Assembly (NCBI RefSeq): GCF_000313135.1
Contig: NW_004457396.1
Coordinates: 11,281-74,784 of the forward strand
Direction: 5' to 3'
DNA from: Acanthamoeba castellanii str. Neff
Taxonomy: Eukaryota > Discosea > Longamoebia > Acanthamoebidae
DNA length: 63,504 nucleotides
This document shows, one piece after another, positions 11,227-45,790 of this stretch; position 1 is the first letter of the stretch; the number at the start of each line of letters is the position of its first letter. Below the pieces are notes generated by a model, which worked only from the letters and a program-made list of their open reading frames with translations, searched no databases and was not told where the DNA came from. The position numbers and the translations under genes were made by a program.

Positions 11227-11587
11227 CTGGACGAGAGTAAACACGAATAAATCAAATAAATATTTGGCGATACTCACAATCAAAAAAAACTAGTTTCGCC
11301 CAACAATTGCTTATTAATTCATGCTGTAATCTTACCTTGCTGCTGGGTTTGGCTTCTCTTTCGCTGGCCGTGTTCACCACTTGATATTCCGTTCCATTTT
11401 CCGCGCGCTAATCACAACATGCTTGGCATTCCATTCTTTTCTCGATCCATTTCCACCAATGGACCTAATAGACGAACCGGGAGAAGGGGCATCGCTCACA
11501 CCCGCCTTCCGCTGGATGGTCGCCGTCATCGACCACCACTGATTGAATTCAGTCGGTGCCCTTTACGCACGGGGAGTGGCAGTTGGT

Positions 11588-11659
11588 GGGGCGGTGGTGT
11601 AAGTGGTAGCACGTAGTCTAGCCTAGGCTGAGGTGCGAGTTCGATCCTTGCCCGTCCTG
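11588..11659 (+). tRNA. tRNA-Gly(GCC)-like element, possibly degenerate or SINE-derived
   Basis: A complete 72-base cloverleaf can be drawn. The acceptor GGGGCGG pairs with CCGTCCT (two G-T pairs). The D stem GTGT/GCAC encloses AAGTGGTA. The anticodon stem TAGTC/GGCTG encloses TAGCCTA, and the T stem GCGAG/CTTGC encloses TTCGATC. The anticodon position reads GCC (Gly). Base 33 is A instead of the near-universal T, and the discriminator is G, so a functional tRNA is doubtful. A and B box-like sequences are present and a T5 follows at 11668. It could be a tRNA pseudogene or the head of a SINE. Confidence 0.45.
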
Positions 11660-11667
11660 AACCGTCG

Positions 11668-12097: not shown

Positions 12098-15000
12098 ATG
12101 TACGGGCACGTCTTTCTCGCCGTCAAGGTACCCCCGCAGCTTCGTTCTTTCTTCGTTTTCGTTCTTTAATGCCAAAAAAATAGCCCCCACACCTCCTATT
12201 ATTTATTATTTTTTGTTTCTTCTCTCTTCGTTTCTGACAACCCACAAAACAAATAAATAACAAAAACATTATTATTAGGATTGCGTGGTGAGCAAGTTCG
12301 GCGAGGCGGCCTGGCTCAAGATTCTCGCCCTCTCCCGTGCCGCTCCGGCCGGCGGGGGCGAGTTCATCGCCATGCAGGCCTACGACGACAAAGGCCTCTA
12401 CGACGTCGTCGCTGCCGCCTGCAAGGTACTGTACCAGTCGTTCACGACCTTTCCTCACTTCCCACCTTCGTTCTGGTTCACCTTCTTCTTTCTTCTCGCG
12501 TGCTCAACCTCTCGCGGGCGCTGACTTGACGTCGGATCCGTGGGTGCAGGTGCTGAACGTGACCGCCGAGACCGTGCTGGAGATCGCCGGTCGCCACTTC
12601 ATCGCCTACACGCACAAGAAGACGGCCCACGGCCAGCTGCTGGAGCTGATGGGCAACAACCCCATCGACATCCTGTGCAACATCAACAAGCTCCACGCCC
12701 ACCTCCTCAAAGTGGCCCATTTCCCCGAGGTCCGTTCCACCCACGCCCTCACTTGGCTCTCTATGTCTGCTCTACTCCGATTGAAGAAACGGGCCACGTG
12801 AGGCTCACCGCGTTTGTGGTGCACTCGCCTCGACGCGCAGATCGCATCGCCCACCTTTCGTTGCACCAACAAGAAGGCCAACAGTGTGCGTCTGCACTAC
12901 ACGCCGGGCAAGGAGTCGCGAGTCGGGCTGGCGCCCTTCGTCAACGGTACGCGCACACCCGGGTCGCATCTCGGTGCACTCCTCGCGATGTAGCCAAGCA
13001 GGTTCTGACCACGCGCACGCCGCTGGGCTGCTTCTGCTGAAGCACAGGCGCGATTCGGGGTCTCGTGGAGGACATGCTCAAGTGCACCGACGTCACCGTA
13101 GAACAGATTAAGAGCCGGGAGAAGCACCAGACCGACGTCTTCCTCATCACCTGGGCCTCGCCTGCGGTACGTGCCTCTGTACACTCACCTCATAACCTAC
13201 CTTATTTTCCTATTTCTATTACTTTGAAAATGTAATGGTTATTATAATACGTTTGATAGGTGATTGGAACATTTTCTTTAAGCTCCCTAATATCTCTTTG
13301 CTTACTTATTATTGTGTTGGTGCGCTCAGAGATCCGACGCGGACGAGGACAGCCCATCGACAGAGCTTTCGACCCTGATCGACGACCTCATGCCGGTCAA
13401 GTACGGACTTAGCGCCAAGGGCGTATCCCGCCTCTTCCCCTTCCACGTCGCCTTCGACAAGGAGTGCAACATCGTCCAAGCTGGCGCCGTGCGTTTGAAC
13501 CCCGACATATTTTTATTTTATTTTATTTTATTGAAATTATTCTTATATTTTATATTATTTAATTATTCTTATATTTCCTTATTTTTTGATTTATTAATAT
13601 TTCTTTAATTATTCGTTTTTATGTGGTGTGCAGTCGTTGCAAAAGGTGGTGCCAATGGAGCAGGGTGACCCAATGTCGCAGCACTTCGCCATCAAGGACC
13701 CCGACACCTGCGCCTTCCCTCAATTCCGCGCCATCCACTCCAAGCGAAAGCACACCCCGTTCACCCTCGTCCACCAGTACGACGACCAAAAGCAGCTCCT
13801 GCTATGCGGTGAGGTGCGCACGACACGACACACATCACCCTACTCGCACACGTACGACACACACGTACGACACAACCACTAAGCTCAGGATACAATGCGC
13901 AGATGGTGTGGTACAAGGCCAAGTCGGTGATGGTCTTTGCGTGCAGCCCCGTCCTGCAGACCCTGGAGGAAGCCAAATATTTTGGCATCGACATCTCCGA
14001 CTTTGCGCTGTGCGACCAGGCCCAGGCGCACCTCCTCATTCAGCATGCTCAGTCGGTACCGCCCGCGCGGCTCTGTGCGTGAGCGTGAGCGTGAGCGTGA
14101 GCGTGTGCGTGTGCGTGTGCGTGTGCGGCCGTGCTAACTATGTGTGGAATGCAGACGAAGGAAAAGGAGGACGGGGGTGCTGGAGCGGCGGCCAAAGAGG
14201 ACTCGAGCCCCAGCAGCAAAGACGAGGGCAGCGGAAGCCGAGGAGACAGGAAAGCCGGACTCCTCCGCTCCTTCTTCATGCCGCCAGTATCGCCGCGTAA
14301 GAAGGAGAGCACCCACCCTCTCAAGATGTCGAGCGATAGCAACGGCCACGACTTCAGCCTCGACTCCAGAACTCCTCCTGATGGTATGTGCGTTTATATT
14401 TGCGGTGTGCGGGTGTGCGGGTGTGTGTGTGTGTGGTGTGAGCGGTGAGATGGGTTGCTGACATACAATGTTCGATCGCTGCTGGGCGTTACAGCGTGTC
14501 CGCTGCATGTGCCACGACTCAACCTGGGCGATAAGAAGCGGAGCAACCGTACGCTCAAGTTCATGCTCGACTCACAGACCCCGCCGGCCTCGGCCACCAC
14601 CGCCCCCGAAAAGAAAACCTGTCCTCCTCCCAAACCCGCTCCAATCATTCGCAATCGCGTCTACCACGCCTTCAGCGAGGTACGCACCTGCCCCCCATTA
14701 GTCGCTCTTCATTTTTTTTTGTTTTTCGCTTTTTCGTCGTTCTTCGTTCTTTGCTCTTCGTTCTTCGCTATTTGCTCAATCTGCACAACGTTGCCGTAGG
14801 CACTGCTGTCGGATTCGTGGGACCGGTTCATCTTCATTCGCACGCTCCTCAATTCGGTGCTCATGCAAGAGGGCGGCGAAGAAATGAGGAAGGTGTTCGA
14901 AGGCGTGGTCCGATTGAATCGCGATGCGGGCAAGATTCGCCACCTTCTTGAGTGCACTCTCGCCGCCGACATCAAGGCTCACAACCAAGGTACACCCGCA

Positions 15001-16607
15001 CGCCATCGCAATCGCACACGACCGCACACGTTGCATAGACGCTGGAAATGTCTCACCTATTTCGGCGTTCAGAGGAGATGGCCCTGTTGTTCCGCGGCGA
15101 AAGCGTCGGTGTGCGGCTGTGGAGCACCTTCATGGGCCAGGAGGCCAACGAGTACCGATTATATTGCTCGCAGCCCCTGTTCCAGGCCGTGGAGGCCTTG
15201 GACCGGCCCCTCGAGGTAATTTTAATCTTTATGATAATTATTATTAGCAGCATTATGTAGTGTTAATTTATTATTTTATTTATTTGTTTACGCATCTGTG
15301 TGTCTGTGCATGTGCGGTGTGTTGCGTGATAGATGCACCCTGGGCGAGTTACGAGCGACACGGAGAGAGACGCGAACGCCAAGAAGCTCATCGGCCTGGC
15401 GCAGACCTTCCTCGACCACGTCTGCGCATCAGCCGAGTTCTGCCCCGTGTACGGCCTCCTCACATTCCTTCATTCCTCTGTGCCCTGCCAGGCCGAGACC
15501 CTCACGCGGGTGGTTGACCTGTGGGTCGGTCGGTCGTGGGTGCTTCAGTGGCGTGCGGACGGTGATGCGGGCGGCGAGCCTGGAGGTGCGAGATCGGTGG
15601 CCGCACCTGCAGTGGAGGGCCATCGCCAGCCTTCTCTTCCTCCGCTTCCTCTCGCCCGGCATCGTCAACCCTGCCGCCATCGGCCAAGGTCCGTTCTTCT
15701 CTCCTCCCCTCGTGTGTTCTCGTGCGTGCGTGCGCGCGTCTGGACTAGGTCTAGGTCTTAAGCACACCTCCGCTGTTGTGGTACGTGCGTGCAGAGGTCA
15801 AAGAGGGCACACCGCGTACGCTGTTGCTCGTGTCCAAGATGGTCAACAACCTCATGAACGAGGTGGCCTTCGGCGACAAGGAGCCCTTCATGCTGCCCCT
15901 CAACAGCTTCCTCAACCATCAGAACAAGGAGGCCGTCCAGCGCTTCGTTCAAAACCTCACCGTACGCTTTCCCTTTCGTCCCCCTAATGTCTTTTTTATA
16001 ATCAATATAATAATTCTACCCATTTTTCTTTTTTTAATAATTAATATAATAATTCTAATAATTAATATAATAATTCTACCCATTTTTCTTTTTTAATTTC
16101 TTGACGTTGGCGTGATCACGCGGAAGCAATGTAACCGCGGTGATCGGTACACTTATTTTTGAAACGGAAACGGTGCAGGACGAGGAGGCGATCGCGGGCG
16201 CTGCGTCAACTCGCGGGGCAGTCGGGCAGGCCGCTTCAGCGGCAGATGCCGGCGGTGGCGCGCCGGACGAAGCGGTCGGCGGCTACCGAACGTCGATGGC
16301 CGTCGACGCCATCAGGGAGGCCCTGCTGCGCCACCACGACGCCATGTGGACCAGCGCTAAGGAGCATCCCTCCATCGTACGCCTTATCTCTCTTTCGTTC
16401 TCTCTTTTCCTCCTTTGTCTCCGACCGTGCGTTGTTGCTTTGGGGGTGGATCGTTTATGACGTTTCCATTAGCCCGAGACCTGTGTGTGTGGTCGCCCGG
16501 TAATCTGACCTGGAACACACCACACACGCCCAAACGTCACACAGGAGGCCAAGCTGCGCCGGCTCCTCACCGTCGCGCTCTGCGATATGCCCACCGAGTA
16601 CTGTTGA
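12098..16607 (+). CDS. H-NOX/HNOBA/RasGAP fusion protein, copy 1
   Basis: Seventeen exons sum to 2505 bases, in frame throughout, for 834 residues. Junctions include 12098-12127, 12279-12425, 12550-12729, 12841-12946, 13048-13166 and the last at 16545-16607. Residues 1-195 are an H-NOX domain: start MYGHVFLAVKD, then YDDKGLYDVVAAACKVLN as in guanylate cyclase beta, proximal heme ligand His108 in KLHAHLLK, then SPTFRCT and LHYTPGKESR. An HNOBA (PAS-like) domain follows (SRLFPFHVAFDKECNIVQAG ... IDISDFALCDQAQAHLL). A Ser/Lys-rich linker leads to a RasGAP domain at about 495-750, with arginine finger Arg567 in LLFRGES, FLRFLSPGIVNP (about 676-687), NNLMNEV and FGDKEPFM. RasGAPs speed GTP hydrolysis by Ras. 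Here a heme gas sensor sits where it could control that activity. No cyclase domain is present. A paralogue follows directly. Confidence 0.92.
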
Positions 16608-16971
16608 TGCCCTTGGTCAGGTCCTGCAGGTCATCGGTGGCGGTCAGGGATTGTCTTTGTGTAGGATATCCGTGTATAGATATTTAAAGTATTCCCACAA
16701 TGATTGGGCTGATGACGCGCAGGTGACAGACCGCAGTGACGTTGCGCCAGGTGCGTTAAAGCAACCAGACAGGAAGACCAGCTCAAACACTTTTTTCTCC
16801 GGCTGGCCAAGCTTGCCCACCACACCCCGGAGCGAGCGTACCGGCCCTTGTTCTTCTGTACGCGTGCGTGAAACATCTCCCACACACAACCGCCACGCAG
16901 AGCCAACCAGAAGAACAAAGGCGCCTTCTTGAAAGAAAGTAGAAGAGCGTCGAGAACGTTACCTTCACAAG
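16608..16971. other. Spacer between the two H-NOX/RasGAP genes
   Basis: 364 bases with no convincing exon. It presumably holds the 3' end of copy 1 and the promoter of copy 2. Confidence 0.4.
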
Positions 16972-19900
16972 ATGCACGGCATAATTATGCTCACCGTGAA
17001 GGTATCGACGTACACCACTCCCTTGCTTCTTTCTCTCACACTCGGGTTATAACTTGGGCACCACAACTTATCGGACAAACATGCGCTAAAATAAGTAGTT
17101 CTTTTTTATTCTAATTATCTGTGTCCTCAACTCACCTTTAGGAATATTATCTAAAATATCAAAAAACAAATGAAAAGGACCACAGCTACAACGGCCAAGT
17201 AGCTAACTTCCAACCGATGCGCCGGCACAGGACTTGGTGGTGACCAAGTTCGGAGAGAAAGCGTGGGTTCAGATGTGCGGCCAGGCCAAGTGCGCGACGG
17301 ACTTTGTGTCGAACCAGCCCTACGACGACGCGATCGTGTACGACCTGGTCAAGGCCGGCAGCGCCCTGCTCAAAGCCAAGCCGGAGGACCTGCTCGAGCA
17401 GGTGGGCTACTGGTTCATCGTCTACCTCCACAAGAAGACCGTACGTTCTTCTTGCACCTCACAATAAGCTTTTAACTCCGATTGCGATTAGCCTGGGTGC
17501 GGGTTAACCCGTTACGATTGTAACGTGCACGGCTGATGCGTTTGTTGTGTTGCATGTACACGCGCGCGTCGTGTGCGTGCAGTCATATGGCCAGCTTCTG
17601 GAGATGATCGGCAGCGATCTCGGCGAAGTGCTTTCACAGATCAACAAGCTGCACGCACACCTGCTCAAGGTGGCCCATTTCCCCACGGTGCGGCACTCAT
17701 CTTTACCAGCTATGTCGTCGTCTTCTTCTTCTATGTACAGAACTGAGCTCTCACTGCTCGCGCGGGTGGCAAATGTCAGATCATGTCGCCCACCTTCAAG
17801 GTGACCCACAGAAAAGGCAACAGCATGCGCCTGCATTACACACCGGGCAAAGAGTCGCGACAAGGCCTCTCGCCACTCGTCGTCGGTACGCGCTTCATCT
17901 TGCCACGCACCACCGCACGTAATACACAACACGTGAGTCTCATCGTTGAGAGGAATCAGGCTTGGTTAAGGGATTAGGTGCTGAGCTGCTGAAGCTCAAG
18001 GAGGTGACCGTCACCCAGATCAAAACCAAGGAGGCCGACGGCATCGACGTCCTCTTCGTCGAGTGGAAAACCGACACCGTAAGTCTTCGTTCTTTTTCGT
18101 TCTTTGTGCCTTTCCCGATGGTGGCACTCACCCTGGGACCGCGGCCCGGACATAGGAGGGGGACGGCCACGAGGCCGGGGCGTCGGAGAGCACGACCACT
18201 GCGACCCAGAAGGCGCCACTAAAGCACGGGCTCAACGCCAAGTCGCTCGGTCGACTATTCCCGTTCCACATCATGTTCGACAAGGAGTGCAACATCGTCC
18301 AGGCCGGACCTGTAAGCCTCTCCTTTGGCCTTTCCAACGACCAGCACATAATGTTGAACTTCTTGTCGTGTGTGCCGTGTGTGCCGTGTGTGTCGTGTGA
18401 TGTGTGTTGTGTGCATGTAGGCGCTGCAACGAATTGTGCCGCTTGAGACGGGCGACGCCATGTCGCAGTTCTTCACCATTAAGGAGCCCGAAGCTTGTGC
18501 TTTTCCCAATTTTAAGACCATCTACTCGCACCGCAAGCTGTCTCCCTTCACCCTTGGGCACGCCTACGACGACGACACCACTTTCCTTCTCCACGGCGAG
18601 GTACTCACCCGTATAATCGCACACGCACCACGCACACACCGCACACACCGCACCTATTGCAAGCACACCACCCACCGCACGCGCAAACGATGAGTGCAGA
18701 TGGTGTGGTGCCAAGGCAAGCAAACCGTCTGCTTCGCCTGTTCGCCCGTGCTCAACTCGATAGAGGAAGCCCGCTATTTCGGCATCGACATGTCCGACTT
18801 CCCCCTCTGCGACCAGGCCCAGGCTCGCCTTATGACCGCTCACGCAGCCGTACGCCTTCTCTCTTTGCTCTCTCGCATGCGAAGAACGAAAACGAAAGCG
18901 AAGCAAAGAGCGAAAGCGGAAAGAACGAAAAGCGACAGGCGAATTAATTGATTTCATTCTTTTCAATTCAGGCGGCCTACAAACCGACCGACTCAGAGTC
19001 CGTGGCGCCAGAGTCGAATGGGAATTGCGGCGGAAGTACAATCGTCAGCAGCGACAAGGCCGAGAGAGCGAGGGGCACGAGCGGCAGCGGGCGGATCTTC
19101 AAGACCCTCTTCGGCCCGAGCCCCAGCAAGACCCGCAAAAACCGAGGAGGAGACGAGGAAGAGCCCTGGCGCATCAAGAGCAAGCCGCACTCGGCCGATT
19201 GTCCGGCCGTGACCGAGACCTGCCCACTCGCGGGTACGATCTCAGCTCTCTCTCTTTTTTTTTCGTGCTTCTTTCTTACAACACGCGACACGCGACACTC
19301 CTGAAAACACGCGACTCACAACACAATAGCAATGGCTCCGCCCGCTGGCTCGTTCGATTCGGTCAGCGCAAGTGGCAGAGCCACCAAGCTCCCGACGACC
19401 ACATCGCTCGATTCGATCCCCGCGGTTACCAAAGGCACCAAGATCCGATTCCCGATCGGCTCTGAGCAGGGTACCAAATCGCACACACGGCACGCACGCA
19501 TTCGCACACGACGCACACGCACCCACACGCACGCACATGTACAATCGCACGCATACGCACACAGGCGCTCACAAAATGCGTGGACAGAGCTCATCAACAA
19601 CGAGCGGCTTCGGCGCGGCCGCACCGGGTCCAATATTACCGCCGGCGCCCGGTCAGCCGAGGGCTCGCCCCGCCAATCCCTGGGCTCTGCCACGTCATCA
19701 TCGTCATCATCGGCTGTCCACTCGTTCGAGTGCGGCGCCGCCCCCATCGTTCGGGGGGCGCACGCCGGAGCCGAACGACTGCTCCACGTCTTCACCGAGA
19801 CCCTGCTCGAGGACTCCTGGGACGACTTTCCGCTGATGCGGACCATGCTCGAGCTCGACATGGCCTCAGCTGCACCGCGCGGCCACGAGCACCCGCTGAG

Positions 19901-21270
19901 CGAGGCCATCGTCAGCTTCTACACAATCAAGGGCAAGTCGCAGCACCTCCTCACCTCCTCTTTCATCGATCAGATCGCCGCGAGCCCTCGAGGTACCGCG
20001 TTTGAGTGCGTGTGCGTGTGCGTGTGCGTGTGCGTGTGCGTGTGCGTGTGCGGTTTTCTCAACTTTTTTGTTGCGCGCAGAGGAGAGTGCGGTGCTTTTC
20101 CGGGAGGAGAGCATTGCGGTGCGGCTGTTCAAGGCCTTCATTCACCAGCAGGCGGCGCACTACATCGACTACTGCATCGGCAACCTCATCACCACCGTCA
20201 ACGCGCTCGAGAAGCCCCTCGAGGTGCGCCTTGCTCACCACCCCACTTTCTAGGCCTGCGCTGTGTCCGACTCGTACGACTCACACGCACACCGAACACA
20301 CCGCACACGCACACATATTTGATCAAACAAGATTGATCCAAGGAATGCGTCGACAGCGGAGGTGGCCAAAAATGCCAAGCAGCTTCTTGTGATCGCGCAG
20401 GAGTTCCTCGAGCATGTGTGCAAGTCCTCCTCGCAGTGTCCGGCGTACGCACACGATCTCCCTGCCATCACCACCCACCGCCCACCACCAGCGTCATCAG
20501 CATCATCGCCAAATGTCATCTCCATCGTCACCATTGTCATCATTGTCATTGTCGTCATCGAAGAAGTCTACTCACGCATCTCTCCCATCTCGCAGGCCCG
20601 TGCGCCGGATACTGAGAATCGTGGGCCGGGAGGTGGGCAAGCGGTGGTCGGAAATGAACTTGCAGGCCATCGCCAACCTAATCTTCCTCCGCTTCCTCTC
20701 CCCGGCCATCGTCTCGCCTCATCGAGGTACCTCTCCCGCCCGAGCTTCGTTTTCGTTCTTTCTTTCTCCGCATTTTGTCTTTCGCTCTCCGCTCTTCATT
20801 TTACTGACCGAGAGGCCTCAGGCAAGACGACGAGTCAGCGGACGTTGATGCTCATCACTAAGCTGCTCAACAACCTCATGAACAACGTTGAGTTCGGGGA
20901 GAAGGAGTCCTACATGACCTCGCTCAATCCATTCATCTCGCCCGACAACCTGCTACTCGTCCAGCAGTTCATGCAAGAGCTTGTGGTACAGTGCTTGCAA
21001 CACCCTTCCAGCCACGCAATTGATTGTTTCGTCTGACCGCACACGCACACGCACACGATCGATGGTTAGTCCGAGGAATCAATCATTGCTGCAGCGGCGG
21101 AGGCGAACGAGATGCACAGCAAACGCGGAGCGAGCGACAGCGCAGAGTTCAGCGAGCGATATCGGCTGCTGGCAGCACTGGATGAGATCAAGCGGTCCCT
21201 CCTCCAGCTGCTCCCTGCACTCTACACCTCGGCCGCCGCCAAGCCCAAGCTGGTACTTGCGCTCTTTTGA
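16972..21270 (+). CDS. H-NOX/HNOBA/RasGAP fusion protein, copy 2
   Basis: Sixteen exons sum to 2616 bases, in frame, for 871 residues. Ends: first exon 16972-17001, last 21070-21270. The domain order is the same as the upstream gene. H-NOX: MHGIIMLTVKD, YDDAIVYDLVKAG, proximal His104 in KLHAHLLK, SPTFKVT, LHYTPGKESRQGL. HNOBA: GRLFPFHIMFDKECNIVQAG ... IDMSDFPLCDQAQARL. The linker is longer, Ser/Arg-rich. RasGAP: HVFTETLLEDSWDDFPLM, arginine finger Arg629 in VLFREES, LEIDPRNAS, FLRFLSPAIVSP (about 737-748), NNLMNNVEFGEKESYM. Copy 2 has one exon (17231-17440) where copy 1 has two, so intron positions have diverged. Both catalytic signatures are intact, arguing against decay. The short acidic C-terminal exon ends KPKLVLALF. 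Confidence 0.92.
20006..20052. repeat. (GTGTGC)n microsatellite in intron
   Basis: Hexanucleotide tract in the intron before the arginine-finger exon of copy 2. Similar GTGTGC runs occur at 14080-14130 in copy 1. Confidence 0.8.
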
Positions 21271-21289
21271 GTAGGGTGGTGTGTGTTGA

Positions 21290-23240
21290 GGTTCTTATCT
21301 GATTTCCCCCATCCACACAACAGCAACAAGTGCTCCAGAAGTTGGTGTCTGTCTTCCTGTGTGAACTCCCAACTGAAGTTGCATACTGAGGGACTACAGC
21401 CCAACCAACCATACCTGACTGGTAAGATGCAAAGTGAAAAATCTGGTTGGGAGGTTCTTGAGGTGCACCCATGGGCACTGCACCCTTTAGACACTCACAG
21501 GTGGGTTGGATGGTTGAAACAAGAGCCTCATGAGCTTCAAAGATGTCTGCCCACTCACTGAGCTCAGATTCAAGAAACAGTGGAGAATGGCAGTTGTCTG
21601 CCAACTTACTGATCACTTCAGGTGGAAATGCTGGGTGAAAGGTGGTAGAAATGGTGATGTAAGAGATAATGTGGGAATGAAGATGATGGTATGATGGTAT
21701 GTTCCTCCTCTGCTCTGTGCAGCAGACAAGGCCAGACAGCCAAGCATGGACCTGAAGGAGGTGTTGGGTGGAGGTGGCCTTCTTTATCTGGGTGGTGAGG
21801 AGGAGACTGGCAGCTACAAGGGGTACCCTTTACAACAACACCACACACCCCAGATCCTCCACCACCTTCTTTTTAATATGTCTGGTCAGTGCAGATATGG
21901 GCTGGTGATGATGGTGGAGCTGTTCTTGGCCATCCTGTTGGGTGCCAACTATGCAGCCAAAATTCCTCCCTGGCGACAGGGTCACAGAAGGTAACACACT
22001 CTCATTCCCATATCACCACCAAAGCTTGTCTTTCTTCCTCTTCTTCTTCTCACTCAATGAGTGTGGAATTGTGTGGAATTGCACACAAGAGGCACCTGCT
22101 TGAGACTGTACAGAGCTCTCTTCAGGCAGAAGACAAGGTGCTGGGTTGCCTACCTAATGGCTAGTAGCATGCACAGGTTCTTGAGCTGGAAGACAGGTGC
22201 ATAGGTTGTTGAAATCAATGCCAGCCACCTGGGAGAAACTGCATGCAACCCAGCACACCTTGTACATTCCAAGTGCCTTGAGCTTGAGCACCCAGTAGGC
22301 ACTTGATGTGCCCACCATCAGTGCACACCAGTTGAGATGGCTTGGTGAGAGGGATGAATTCATGAAGTAGGTCATGCTGATTGGTGGTGTGTTGAGTCAC
22401 ACCAGTGTCAGTGACCATAGGCAGATGGACATTGGCCACCAGGGAGAAGACCAAATAGTTGAAGTGCAGTTTATTGTGGATTGTGTTCTGACAATGGTAC
22501 ATCAGGCCCACTGACAATGGCGAAATTGCTGGGCCTTGCAGCAGTGGTGGTTGACTGCACAGTGCTGGATGAGGGTGAGAAGGTTGACCAGCCATATCCT
22601 GACCACAGGGCTGGTGTTGACCCATGTAGAGGATGGCTAGCAACAGTGTGTCATGAGGCCTTGACACAGTCAAGTGCCTTGAGAACAGCTTCAGCCAGGG
22701 TGTTGAACTGAGCTTCAAACACAGGATTAATGGCCTTGAGTGCAGCCAAAAGGATGATGAGTCAGCTCTATTCCAACATCTTGCGCCCTCCAGTCTCAGT
22801 GGCCAGCACACTGACAAGCACCTGAATCCATGCCCAGACTGAGCACACAGTGTTCCCTGGACACAGCAGGTAATTGTCTGGTCACATGATCTGGCTGTGT
22901 GCCCCAACCAGTGTAATATGCCACCCTCATTAAACTGCCACTGGGCTGCTGGGCTGTCAGGCATGGCACCCAGCATGGTGTCACTATAGTCAATGGACAA
23001 CAGAGTTACATCATGATGCACAATGTTGCTTACATGCCCAGGGCCTCACATGCTCATCTTGCCCCAACAACTACAATGCTGGGTCAGCTCACAGCAGCAT
23101 ATCACTGATGTGACTGAAATGGTGATGGACAAGATGAAGACATAGCTGCAGGGAGAACACAGAGAGCAGTGTGGGCTGGTGTCAGCAGAGGGGATGAAGG
23201 TGATGTTGAACTGGTAGCTGAGGACTTGTTGGGCAGTGGT
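21290..23240 (-). mobile_element. Decayed Ty1/copia retrotransposon fragment, CpG-depleted
   Basis: Fragmented minus-strand frames match copia Gag-Pol pieces in the expected order. A protease-like VTDTGVTQHTTN (compare DSGATHHM) lies near 22390, followed by a VLYVPGL-like stretch. A reverse-transcriptase block VFCLKRALYSLKQVP (compare VCKLKKALYGLKQAP) is at about 22130-22080. TSFRSMLGCLAL (compare YRSLVGSLLYLA) is near 21750, and an RNase H-like GRQTPTSGALV near 21340. Frames are broken by stops and shifts, and the protease-RT distance is too short, so the element is deleted internally and inactive. I count only about three CpG in nearly 2 kb. No LTRs were recognised. Confidence 0.75.
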
Positions 23241-30243: not shown

Positions 30244-30250
30244 GAGGAGT

Positions 30251-30331
30251 GAACGGAGTGGGATTTGAACCCACGCATCCGAACATAACAGTGCCTTAAA
30301 CTGTCGCCTTAGACCGCTCGGCCATCCGTCC
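30251..30331 (-). tRNA. tRNA-Leu(AAG)
   Basis: 81-base class II tRNA. The acceptor GGACGGA pairs with TCCGTTC, and the D stem GCC/GGC encloses GAGCGGTCTAA. The anticodon stem ACAGT/ACTGT encloses TTAAGGC with anticodon AAG (30295-30297 on the plus strand as ctt). A long variable arm marks Leu identity. The T arm is GTGGG-TTCAAAT-CCCAC. No intron. A34 would be read as inosine. Confidence 0.95.
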
Positions 30332-40468: not shown

Positions 40469-43400
40469 ATGTTGTGCTTGGGTTTGGTGAAGTGAACTTG
40501 TTCCAGCATTTTTCCTGACAGAGCGGCGCTTTCTGGTGAAATTGGAGCACTACTTCACACAGGCAGTGCTGGAAAAGGCAGGAAGCCGCCACCAGGGAGC
40601 TGAAGTTGTGGGTTAGTGATGTTTCATGGTCACAGCTTGGGCGCAAGGGCCATCAGTATAGTATAGCTTAGTTGCCCACCACACATTTTATGCTTGGCAA
40701 TGCAGGAGGATGGTGGGAAGCCAGTACAGGCAAAGTATGGTTTTGTCACCAAATCAATGGGACTTAACATGCTGTTCCACAATGAGTTTGATGAAGCTCT
40801 TGATGAGGAGGCTTTTGTCCAGGCCTACTGGCGCACCACCACTCATGTTGTATGTGCACCTTGCACCTCCAAACACACTATGGCTGCTTGGACTAATTGA
40901 GCAACATTTTCTTTGTCTCTCAGCACCCCTTCTTGCACCACAACTTGAGCTATCATGTGAAGGATGCTCCTAGGTGCTATTTACTCTGGGTTGTTAGCAT
41001 GCATTTAAACTGTTGATCCAACCCACACCACACCCACATTGCCAGGAGAAGGAACCAGCAGCAGGCAATGGCTGAGAGCAGGGCAGCAAGAGCCAGAATA
41101 CTAGAAGCAAAGTTGCAGAAGCCAGAGCAGCTCAGGTAGCACGGCCTATCCTGTGCATTTTTTCCTTACCACTCAACCCACACCACACCCACATTGCACA
41201 TGTGCTGTGCCACCAGGCATCAGAAGTACTACCTGGAGCTCCAGGGGTGCATCAGGGCTGAGCATGAACGGCCCTCTTGGGATGGCATTGCTGAAGTAGT
41301 AGTTGGCCTCTATCGCCATGCGGTGAGCACAATCCCCTCCTTCCTTGCCACACTTTCAACATTCCTCTCATTCTGTTTTCTATGTGTTGTGTTACGTTGT
41401 GTGCGTCGTGTCTCGTGTCGTGTGTTCTGTGTGCGGTGTAAGACTTTTGGCACGCGACCGCACACGTGCCTTGGTTGGTGGCGTCACAGGCCGTCCAGCG
41501 AGCTGACGGCCCGCTGTTGGCGTGAGGTGCTCACCCTTGAGCTCCCCCAGCCCGACACAGGCGACCCAGCCCTCAACCGCCAACTTATCGCCCTCTTCTA
41601 CGTCCGGCTGTTCGGCGAGCCACCGCCGACGACCCCCTGGCAAGAACTCGGCCTCGCAGAGATCTCGCCGGCACCCATGCGCCACTGGGAAGAGACCGCA
41701 GCGACGGCCAAAGCCGAAGTCGAAACGAGCAGCAACGACGGTGGGCTGTTGTGTGCTCGAGTCACTGTCAGCGCCCTGTTCGACCTCGAATCCATCTGGC
41801 TGTTCCGCCGCCGACACAACTCGCCAGGTTGGTACTGGCATCTGTGTGCGGTGTGTGCGGTGTTGCGTGTGCTTGTGCCCTGGTTGGATAGTTGACTTCG
41901 CACGCAGGTCTAGCCTACTCAGGCGTCATGGGCGACAAAGTCACAGAGCTCCACTTCACCATCACCCCACCACAGCCCGAGGTACCCTCACGACAACGAC
42001 ACGCGATGAACCACCACTCATTGCTCACTCGCAAGATCGCTGGGTCATGGCAGGAGGCTCCCAGGAGAGGCAACCAGAGGCCTCCACTTCCATCCGCACA
42101 CCCCGTCCCTCGGCCTTCACCTGCGCCATCGTCGTCTTCGTCTTCATCATCATCGTCGAGGCGCTCGTCCTCATCTTCATCTTCATCTTCATCGTCGTCG
42201 TCTGAGCCGACCATCGCGGTCTTGCTGGAAACTCTGGCCGCTCAGCGCAGGCGCACAGCTGCGCCCTACCCCGGCCGCCAACAACAACAACGACGACAAC
42301 ATCCAGAGCTCGAGCCCGAATCTTCAGTCCACGAGGCCACGCTGACCGAGGCCGCCTGCACGATCGTCACCCGCCACCTTAAGCGCAGGAAGTACCTGGC
42401 CGGCCGCGACGGTGATGAGGACTGGGCGCCGAACGTAACCTACCACTACGTCGGCACCGGCGGCCGCCTCGGACCGGAGCAGGTTCTGCTCAAGCAGCCC
42501 GCCCCCGACCTGCGGTGCCCATTCAAGGGCTGCGCGCTCAGCTGCGACGAAGAGGGCGACGCGCTACGGCGCGACCTCGGCCTGCTCGAGGAGGCCATCG
42601 CTCAGGGCCAGGCGGCAGCGACGGCAGTGGATTGGGTGGTGGGCCGGGTGGCGGCACGGCTGCGGGCGCTGCTGCTCCACCTCCACAACGAACATGCCCG
42701 CGGCTTCGTGATCACCTACGGCAAGAACGAAAGAGAAAACGAAAACGAAAACGAAAACGAAAGCGAAAGCGAAAACGACGATGACGGCGGTGTGCTTCGG
42801 ATCACTATACGACGGCGAGGTGAGGATGATCATTCGCAAGAGGAGGACCGCTGGCGACCCTTCCAGTTCGTCGCCCGCAAGCGACGCATGACCGGGCTCA
42901 GGCTTGACGCCTACATGCCACCGTGCGAGGCCACCACCAGGGTACTCCCCGAGCAGCCCAGCCCGGTGGTGGTCCAGCCACAGGCGGCCAACGAAGAAGA
43001 AGAAGAAGCGATTGCTGCGCTGCATGGCCTGGGGAGGAAGCCAATGCAGACCGCTGAAGAGAATGAAGAGGAAGAGGAAGAGGAAGAGGAAGAAGAGGAA
43101 GAAGAAGAAGAGGAAGAAGAAGAAGAGGAAGAGAAGGTTGCGCTGCCCAGGCGAAGTCCGAGACTGCGTGAGCTCCGGAGGAGACAGGAGGCCCAGGTGG
43201 AGAAAAGGAAAAAACCAAAACAGCGGGTCTCACCGCCACCACGGCGAAAGTTGGCGACTCGGGAACCGGCCAGCAAGACGAAGGGCAGACACCACCTTAG
43301 CCGCCGAGATCGCGAAGCGTACGCACTGCCCGTGTTTTGTGGGTAGTCTCATATCGTGTGTGTCGTGTGGGACAAGTGCTTAAGTGCCGGTGTGTGTGAC

Positions 43401-44151
43401 TTGCTCGGCTGGCCTGTGCTGCGACACAGAATGGCTACTGCGGAGTGGTATCACTCGGCCACGTGGGAGCGGGGGCGGGCGGATGAGCTCGAGGTTGACT
43501 CGGAAGACGAGCCCGACGTCTCGTGGATCCTTCCCTACCGTAAGGAGGTAAACCCTTCTTCTACGAAACACACTCACACACACGCACACACATACACACG
43601 CACACGACGACAACAACACGCACATGCACTGACATGCGATCGGATGAGCACACAGAGGCTGTATGCCATCCCTGACTTGTCGAGCCAAGAAAAGGACATC
43701 ATGTGGTTGTGGAATGCCGAACAGCTCATCAACCCTGTGCGGTCGAAAAAACAGGTTGCCCCTCCCAGCCGCCGCGCCACACGACACCACAACGCCACAA
43801 CAAGACACCGCCCGACCAACGACACACGACACAATGACACCGAGGTCACAGGTTGCGGAGCGCTTTCTGACGATGGTCAAGAACAACGCTGAGTACATCT
43901 TGCGTAGGAATCCCCTGCACGGCGGAAGCCTGGAAGTGATCTGACCTGGCTTGTGCGTGTGCGTGTGTGTGTGTGTGTGTTGCGGTGGTGCGTGTGCGGT
44001 GAATGCAGGCGACGGCAGAAGAGTGGCGCTGCTTGCATTTGCTCGCAACTTTCGCCACCACGAGATTTTGACTGCGGCAGACTGGGTCCAGTTCTCGGCC
44101 GACCTCCACGCCGCTGAAGAGCAACTCTTGCGTCGAATGAGCGATGAATGA
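40469..44151 (+). CDS. SUZ12: SUZ12 homologue (Polycomb repressive complex 2)
   Basis: Core non-catalytic subunit of PRC2, which trimethylates H3K27. The C-terminal VEFS box is clear: EWYHSATWERGRADELEVDS with DSEDEPDVSW, then IPDLSSQEKDIMWLWNAEQL (compare GEKEVMKLWN), ILRRNPLHGG and FARNFRHHEILTAADW. Upstream is the C2H2-type finger CPFKGCALSC ... LHLHNEHARGFV (about 42517-42715). The N-terminal part has HPFLHHNLSYHVK, matching APIFLHRTLTYMS-like sequence of SUZ12. Between finger and VEFS box are acidic and (EN)n runs. The exon at 41900-43338 joins by GG|A to ATGGCTACTGCG after a 93-base intron. The start is uncertain: a 13-base first exon at 40469-40481 (MLCL) is one possibility. Its 5' third (40600-41330) is CpG-poor, unlike the rest. 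Confidence 0.85.
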
Positions 44152-44224
44152 CACACCGCACACACCGCACACACCGCACACGCTACAGACCATAGGTGGT
44201 GTATTTCACAGCGCACATGCACGC

Positions 44225-45790
44225 TCATACTTTGATGCGCTCGATGGTCCACTTCTTCTGGGCGAGCTCTTCGAGCAGAGAGGCGTACTCGCGCACCAGG
44301 CCGTCGAAGCCGGCGCCAGCGCGCTCGTATCGCTGGATCTGCTCCGCGGCCTCCTCGTGCTGGGCCATCGTCTCCTCGATGGCGCACTCCAGGTGCTGCC
44401 GCACCTTCGTCAGCGCCGCCACCTTCGACGGCGTATAGGTGTCCCTCAGCACCTGGCTCTGCAGCAACCTGTGCGGGTAGACACGTACACGACACACGAC
44501 ACACGACACACGACACACGACACACGGCACACGGCACACGGCACACGGCACACGGCACACGGCACACGGCACACGGCACACGACACACAAAGTGAGAAAA
44601 GGCGAATTGGTAAGAGGGAGCGAGGCAAACGCACTTGAGTCGGTTGATCAGGTGTTGGCAGTTGGCCTGGAGCCACTTGCTGTAGACCTGGTCCTGGTTG
44701 AATTGCTGCGAGAGCTTGAAGTCCCGCAGGATCTCGCTCACCACCTGGAACGTCTTGTCCAGCACCTGGCAGTACTCGGCAAAGGAGAGGGCGGCGGTGA
44801 GCCCGTCGACGTCCAGCTGCTTGCGCTCGGCCAGCAGCTGCTCCTTCTTCTTTGCGATGACCTCCGCGATCGGTGGCGACTTCTTGTTGCTCTTGGCCAC
44901 TGCTCACAGCGCGCGTTGAACCGGTTTGTTGTTAAACAACAAACACGAGCCGAGCGCGCTATATAAATCGGTGGGGAGGTGGGTGGGGGTACGAGTCTGG
45001 GGCGAGCCAAGGGGATCGTTGAACTCTGCGATCTCCTGCACCTTTCGTCGTAGCCGCTCGTCCAGTTCGGCGATGATATATTGGTACAGCTCTTGTCGCT
45101 CCTGCAGCAAAGCACACGCATAACACAGACCAGACCGTCGTCGTCGAGTGTCAGCCACATGTGAAGACAAAACAAGTCAGCGCAGTTGTTGCCACGCGTG
45201 AGAGGAAATGCAATGTTACCTCGGCAAACTTGCTCGGAGCCTTGCTGGCGATGGCCAGCTCGATGTCTTCCTTCTTCAGGCCCAGCAGGGTGACGCAAGG
45301 CTTGCCGCTGGCCTCTCCCCTGTGCGGCGTTGTCGGCTTGTCTCCCCCGGGAGCGGTGGCGGTCGGCGGCTCGAGGACCAGGCTGTGCGTCACCTCGGCC
45401 GCGAGGATCACGTTGTGCATCGAGTCATAGACCTTGGGGGTGGCACCGGGCAGAGAGGAGCTCCCCTTGGCCCGCGACTGGAGCCTGCGTGTGGCGATGA
45501 TGTCCTTTGCCTCGGTGTAGAGTGCGCCCACCCGCAGGTGTCGCTCTCGCTCGACTCGCAACGCAGCCTCCGCCTGCGGTTGTCAATTTTCGTGGCCAGA
45601 TGAGCCCAACCGATGTAGAATCTGAAGAATCAGGATTTACCTTTTCGTAGGATTCCTTGAGCGCCTTTCTTTCTCCCATTGGGGCGATGATCGCATTCAG
45701 CCGCTCGAGCAATTCATTGAATCTGGGGTTGGCCATCCGCAGGTCCTGCGACACATAAATTGGCAACGGCATCGGCTTCAATCCCTCCAT
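44225..45790 (-). CDS. HAUS4: Augmin complex subunit HAUS4/AUG4
   Basis: Coiled-coil subunit of augmin, which recruits gamma-tubulin to branch microtubules in the spindle. The start is MEGLKPMPLPIYVSQDLR. The sequence NPRFNELLERLNAIIAPMGE followed by RVERERHLRVGALYTEAKDI matches the plant AUG4 pattern (LIDQLERHCLAPDG ... ERxRYLEAMAxYxEA). The block PKVYDSMHNVILAAEVTHSL matches SPQVYESLExRLVVAEAA. Later exons are helical: QELYQYIIAELDERLRRKVQ, VIAKKKEQLLAERKQLDVDG and HLECAIEETMAQHEEAAEQI, ending IERIKV. Introns carry strong CACACGA/CACACGG repeats. Length (about 390 residues) fits the family. Identification rests on pattern similarity of coiled-coil sequence, so moderate confidence. Confidence 0.65.
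44488..44588. repeat. (ACACGACAC/ACACGGC)n intronic repeat
   Basis: Tandem ACACACG and ACACGGC-type units, about 100 bases, in a HAUS4 intron. Confidence 0.8.

Follow-up and report, generated by a model that had tools for sequence, protein, structure and literature searches.

To our knowledge, gas sensing by H-NOX domains in eukaryotes has been described almost exclusively in connection with guanylyl cyclase and cyclic GMP (cGMP). An amoebal exception was reported by Clarke et al. 2013 (PMC4053784): in the main-text sections considered here, the H-NOX proteins of Acanthamoeba castellanii are described as not found with guanylyl cyclases and as having no distal tyrosine, and nitric oxide (NO) signalling is proposed for them with no output named. 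Going by those sections, these H-NOX proteins are very likely the fusion proteins analysed here. The sequence under study, referred to as the window, is a stretch of 63,504 nucleotides from A. castellanii str. Neff (contig NW_004457396.1, positions 11,281 to 74,784 of the forward strand). Two genes in the window, here called gene 1 and gene 2, each encode one predicted receptor-enzyme in which a front half of the soluble guanylate cyclase (sGC) beta type is followed by a linker and a RasGAP (Ras GTPase-activating protein) domain, which replace the coiled coil and cyclase.

Splicing of the window gave models of 17 exons and 834 aa for gene 1 (12098–16607, + strand) and of 17 exons and 887 aa for gene 2 (16972–21389, + strand). 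All 16 introns of gene 1 (2005 nt in total, within a gene span of 4510 nt) and all 16 introns of gene 2 (1754 nt in total) were bounded by GT..AG. The acceptor of gene 2 exon 5 (17960–18078, +) was corrected by comparison with database protein P0003. Gene 1 and database protein P0001 agreed at 833 of 834 residues and differed by one substitution, and gene 2 agreed with P0003, a protein of A. castellanii Neff, at all 853 common residues, which rules out chance. P0003 carries the NCBI name 'heme NO binding domain containing protein [Acanthamoeba castellanii str. Neff]', and this public model omits two stretches that are present in gene 2. Pfam analysis of the two products, which for gene 2 used the 881-aa model that preceded the 6-residue correction of exon 5, revealed HNOB (E values of 9.7e-31 for gene 1 and 1.5e-26 for gene 2), HNOBA (3e-21 and 6.2e-21) and RasGAP (2.2e-15 and 7.5e-21), all beyond the curated cut-offs, and no Guanylate_cyc match in either protein. 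The domain order was the same in both: H-NOX, HNOBA/PAS, a linker predicted to be disordered, and RasGAP.

An initial annotation of this DNA, made from the sequence alone, had proposed that H-NOX, HNOBA and RasGAP are joined in one protein in two genes, with RasGAP in place of guanylate cyclase; in-frame splicing, Pfam and database identity bear out the first point and the missing Guanylate_cyc match the second. Its count of 17 exons was correct for gene 1, whereas the 16 given for gene 2 left out the last exon (21324–21389, +; splicing and P0003) and so ended the gene at 21270. The motifs that it quoted were recovered (LHAHL, SPTF, LHYT, FPFHxxFDKECNIVQAG, FLRFLSP and LFR(G/E)ES), except that the MYG start applies to gene 1 and gene 2 has MHG.

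The H-NOX domain of gene 1 (about residues 1–191) is encoded by exons 1–5 (12098–13166, +) and its HNOBA/PAS domain (about residues 222–356) by exons 6–8 (13330–14055, +). In gene 2 the same domains are encoded by exons 1–5 (16972–18078, +) and exons 6–8 (18156–18849, +). Residues 1–352 of P0001 aligned end to end with residues 1–345 or 1–354 of sGC beta-1, with E values of 4.9e-35 for the Manduca protein and 3.3e-28 for the human protein; the likeness presumably ends about where the sGC coiled coil starts. The proximal heme histidine (His105 of sGC beta-1) was present in all six of the family H-NOX domains that were aligned. By alignment and exon table, it is His108 in gene 1 (codon 12694–12696, +; P0001 row) and His104 in gene 2 (codon 17652–17654, +; P0003 row). 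This histidine, together with the Tyr and Arg of the YxSxR motif, was invariant across the six family members, human beta-1 and Nostoc H-NOX.

At the distal position, that of beta-1 Ile145, which we take to correspond to Tyr140 of Tt H-NOX, gene 1 has Phe and gene 2 has Leu, and all of the aligned family H-NOX domains have one or the other. The tyrosine by which the O2-binding subclass is recognised is thus absent from both window genes. O2 sensing by these fusions would be unlikely because the O2-binding tyrosine position is occupied by Phe or Leu, in line with Clarke et al. 2013 (PMC4053784), and O2, which the initial annotation had listed among the candidate gases, was rejected on this ground. 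H-NOX domains without the distal Tyr are typically NO-selective.

Exons 9–10 of gene 1 (14155–14679, +) encode a low-complexity linker that is predicted to be disordered from its composition and from the predicted local distance difference test (pLDDT), which was <50 over residues 340–490 of the P0001 model, a single weak full-length prediction that constitutes the structure evidence. In gene 2, the linker and the beginning of the GAP region are encoded by exons 9–11 (18972–19992, +). The RasGAP domain and C-terminus follow in exons 11–17 of gene 1 (14800–16607, +) and exons 12–17 of gene 2 (20081–21389, +). This C-terminal third matched the GAP domains of p120 RasGAP and neurofibromin in sequence and in predicted fold, with E values against p120GAP of 6.9e-19 (gene 1) and 3.8e-20 (gene 2). 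The putative arginine finger, Arg567 in gene 1 (codon 15093–15095, +; alignment and exon table) and Arg629 in gene 2 (codon 20101–20103, +; alignment and corrected exon table), lined up with the arginine of the LFR motif in p120GAP, an arginine that we take to be the finger of that protein. The FLR and K..NLxN motifs were both found in genes 1 and 2, and the arginine finger, FLR and K..NLxN were kept in all five modelled fusions, with S for N in one of them (P0006).

Genome-wide searches were made against assembly G000 (38.4 Mb, 250 contigs). At least 54 guanylate cyclase matches were listed for it; none of these lay on C152, the contig that holds the window genes, or on C75, a contig with a further H-NOX gene, and one lay on C190, where the H-NOX gene is about 59 kb away. 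A guanylyl cyclase adjoining an H-NOX gene was rejected from the matches on these three contigs.

The two window genes belong to a fusion family that has no fewer than five loci in A. castellanii, in addition to database protein P0002. On C190, a gene of 15 exons encodes an H-NOX/HNOBA/RasGAP fusion of 1017 aa. On C152, an unspliced locus (L016) was located at about 150–155 kb (−), where tblastn recovered the HNOBA and RasGAP exons in order; the first H-NOX exon (E = 0.78) and the heme-loop exon (E = 0.05) matched weakly. The fifth fusion is represented by the Neff protein P0004, named 'GTPaseactivator protein for Ras-like GTPase' by NCBI, and by P0006. These two did not differ at any of the 848 aligned residues; two insertions in P0004 are absent from P0006, and the public P0004 model also misses several stretches. 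The P0004 gene had no near-identical place in G000, its best exon reaching ≤72% among the matches listed in one search and 69% in another, and P0004 gave no match to phage records. HNOB was above the curated cut-off in both window genes, the C190 and C75 genes, P0006 and P0002.

P0006 and P0002 also bear on whether each locus yields one protein. P0001 by itself is no proof of splicing, since its contig of 4929 nt could hold the intron-bearing 4510-nt gene. P0006 is a continuous frame of 906 aa on contigs of ≤3171 nt, which leave no space for introns on the scale found in genes 1 and 2, so it was read as spliced mRNA. P0002 is likewise continuous, with 723 aa on 2520 nt, and shares 55% identity with gene 1 across 707 aligned residues. 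We infer that the sources of both are transcript assemblies, and the fusion genes are probably expressed. Separate H-NOX and RasGAP genes at each locus were rejected on these continuous frames, and the single gene per locus of the initial annotation was upheld over its alternative of two transcripts.

Comparison of intron positions, counted as common when within 3 aligned columns, showed that 13 of the 16 introns of gene 1 match gene 2 in place and phase and 12 match the C190 gene. In an H-NOX tree of 89 rows (a short domain, with the P0002 row partial and L016 left out), the six family sequences formed one clade (99/98), within which the five RasGAP-fused sequences formed a nested clade (100/98) and P0002 grouped with gene 1 (100/99). 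The tree carried flags for meeting long branches, the C190 and C75 sequences among them, and is no test of bacterial versus animal origin because its bacterial rows were chosen through an alignment led by the C75 sequence. The simplest reading of these sequences would be one fusion event followed by duplications that predate the split from the source of P0002. A five-sequence profile search of the protein database gave no further fusions among the 7988 candidates scored, the number also scored in the two other protein searches; known sGC proteins were not returned, so that coverage was narrow. A wider proposal, which we regard as possible and advance with reserve, is that amoebae of the Acanthamoeba lineage exchanged the sGC-type cyclase for RasGAP in one ancient fusion event, from which a family of at least five genes arose, one with a degenerate H-NOX resembling that of the alpha subunit. 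The outcome would be a class of eukaryotic NO receptors that set Ras without cGMP, perhaps as PAS-paired heterodimers of heme and heme-free partners.

The C75 gene (6538–4196, −) encodes an H-NOX/HNOBA protein of 674 aa with no RasGAP or cyclase match. Its C-terminus is CLLS, which we take to be a possible CaaX prenylation signal, and the product may be a membrane-tethered gas sensor without an enzyme of its own.

The explanation that we favour for the window genes, at slightly short of an even chance for the whole, is a gas-controlled RasGAP receptor with a sensor half of the sGC beta type. In such a receptor, the H-NOX domain would hold ferrous heme through the conserved histidine, and binding of NO (or CO) would shift the arrangement of H-NOX and PAS, possibly within a PAS dimer. 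The tethered RasGAP would then be released or repositioned and would accelerate the GTPase reaction of a Ras-family protein, and Ras signalling would fall without the involvement of cGMP. As the coiled coil is missing, coupling by relief of inhibition or by a change in dimerisation would be likelier than by movement of a rigid helix. The parts of this scheme differ in strength. NO or CO rather than O2 would very probably be the ligand if heme is bound, and an active GAP for the Ras family is likely; heme binding by the H-NOX half is somewhat favoured. Control of the GAP by gas comes close to an even chance without reaching it, and as to its direction we would guess, leaning modestly that way, that NO turns the GAP on.

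An exon-by-exon search for the NO synthase oxygenase domain gave 0 matches in G000, an assembly in which the P0004 gene lacks a near-identical counterpart, and matches in 2 of 14 control genomes. An NO synthase of the amoeba's own was therefore rejected as the source of NO, which would probably come from outside (prey or host) or from nitrite.

The alternatives to a gas-controlled RasGAP overlap, and the likelihoods given to them need not sum. The one that survives best, unlikely in our view, is that the H-NOX domain binds neither heme nor gas and serves in scaffolding or dimerisation, with a RasGAP that is constitutive or controlled in another way, for example by phosphorylation of the linker. 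Several observations weigh on this side and against heme-based sensing. The YxSxR loop carries three extra residues in all six family H-NOX domains, and its Ser is lost in five of the six, with Glu instead in both window genes; the spacing is canonical in human beta-1, Nostoc Alr2278 and all 80 sampled bacterial relatives (the best 80 of 290 confirmed; 74 were read by script and the other 6 by eye). The insertion is both a mark of the lineage and a ground for caution on heme binding. The proximal-His stretch of L016 gave no tblastn match at E up to 1. L016 may be a heme-free partner like sGC alpha, with decay of the locus or an assembly error equally possible. The linkers, moreover, are long and disordered or of low complexity, and the sGC alpha subunit, which binds no heme, offers a precedent. 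What speaks for a heme site is the invariance of the proximal His, Tyr and Arg in six of six domains despite pairwise identities of about 26–55%.

That the GAP acts on another small GTPase of the Rap or R-Ras type, or is inactive, leaving Ras proper uncontrolled, appears slightly less likely still. The retention of the catalytic motifs in five of five fusions argues against it, as does the ranking of matches, in which p120GAP and neurofibromin come first and IQGAP1 scores much lower (E = 2.7e-4 for gene 1; not listed for gene 2). A third alternative accepts bound heme and makes the signal the redox state, CO or the availability of heme, and not NO. It draws on the missing NO synthase domain and on a distal residue that is a generic Phe or Leu; we consider it improbable, given that NO selectivity without the distal Tyr was argued for A. 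castellanii H-NOX in the sections considered of Clarke et al. 2013 (PMC4053784) and that denitrifying prey and nitrite could supply NO. Two genes per locus, or a model artefact joining an H-NOX gene to an adjacent RasGAP gene, can be dismissed as highly improbable in view of the P0006 and P0002 contigs, too short for intron-bearing genes, the identical domain order in five modelled fusions and the common introns of gene 1 (13 of 16 with gene 2, 12 of 16 with C190).

The Acanthamoeba fusion family thus suggests a gas-to-Ras signal that skips cGMP. If true, the coupling of an sGC-type sensor to a RasGAP would make these proteins receptors that link gas directly to Ras, and would show the sGC sensor half driving an unrelated enzyme without the coiled coil. 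It would also offer a path from the NO of bacterial prey to Ras-controlled macropinocytosis, motility or encystment in amoebae.

The initial annotation knew of no described H-NOX/RasGAP protein, and none was found in the open-access literature searched; the missing cyclase was already in print (PMC4053784, main-text sections considered). A search of that paper's main text for the terms 'RasGAP', 'Ras' and 'GAP' gave none of them. No paper was found on H-NOX or HNOB together with RasGAP in the open-access literature searched, supplements excluded, and no fusion was described in papers retrieved with H-NOX and GTPase-activating, judged by title and start of abstract. Public database entries hold both domains and are named after one half or the other. 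The UniRef names of two fusion proteins start with 'guanylate' or 'guanyla' and would be misleading if they say cyclase. The parts and the missing cyclase were therefore known, and the combination of H-NOX with RasGAP is apparently new to the literature and unremarked in databases.

Elsewhere in the window, a tRNA-Gly (gcc) was found shortly 5′ of gene 1 (11587–11660, +; below the Rfam threshold) and a tRNA-Leu (aag) at 30249–30331 (−), which meets the Rfam threshold. An open frame at 43383–44903 (−), one of 10 frames scanned out of 64 listed, matched HAUS4, a subunit of the augmin complex (E = 1.5e-11).

Among known systems, sGC beta-1 shares with the fusions H-NOX followed by HNOBA/PAS over residues 1–352, the proximal His and a non-polar distal residue. 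The fusions differ from it in having no coiled coil or cyclase, in carrying a disordered linker and RasGAP, and in a heme loop that is 3 residues longer. The fusions share the arginine finger, FLR and K..NLxN with p120 RasGAP (RASA1) and neurofibromin, whereas the GAP of the fusions is joined to a gas-sensor half. In RASA1, the GAP domain sits with SH2, PH and C2 domains, and in neurofibromin it lies within the rest of that protein. LovA of Physarum, given as RasGAP-PB1-PAS_9-SAM-PB1 in the portion of the source considered (PMC4758236), is likewise an amoebozoan protein that unites a sensor-type PAS domain (LOV) with RasGAP; it differs in that LOV domain and in domain order, and H-NOX is not among the domains listed there. 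Database protein P0005 resembles the fusions in that an H-NOX and HNOBA sensor half is joined to another output, which in this protein of 973 aa is a histidine kinase with a receiver domain, and its heme loop has no insertion.

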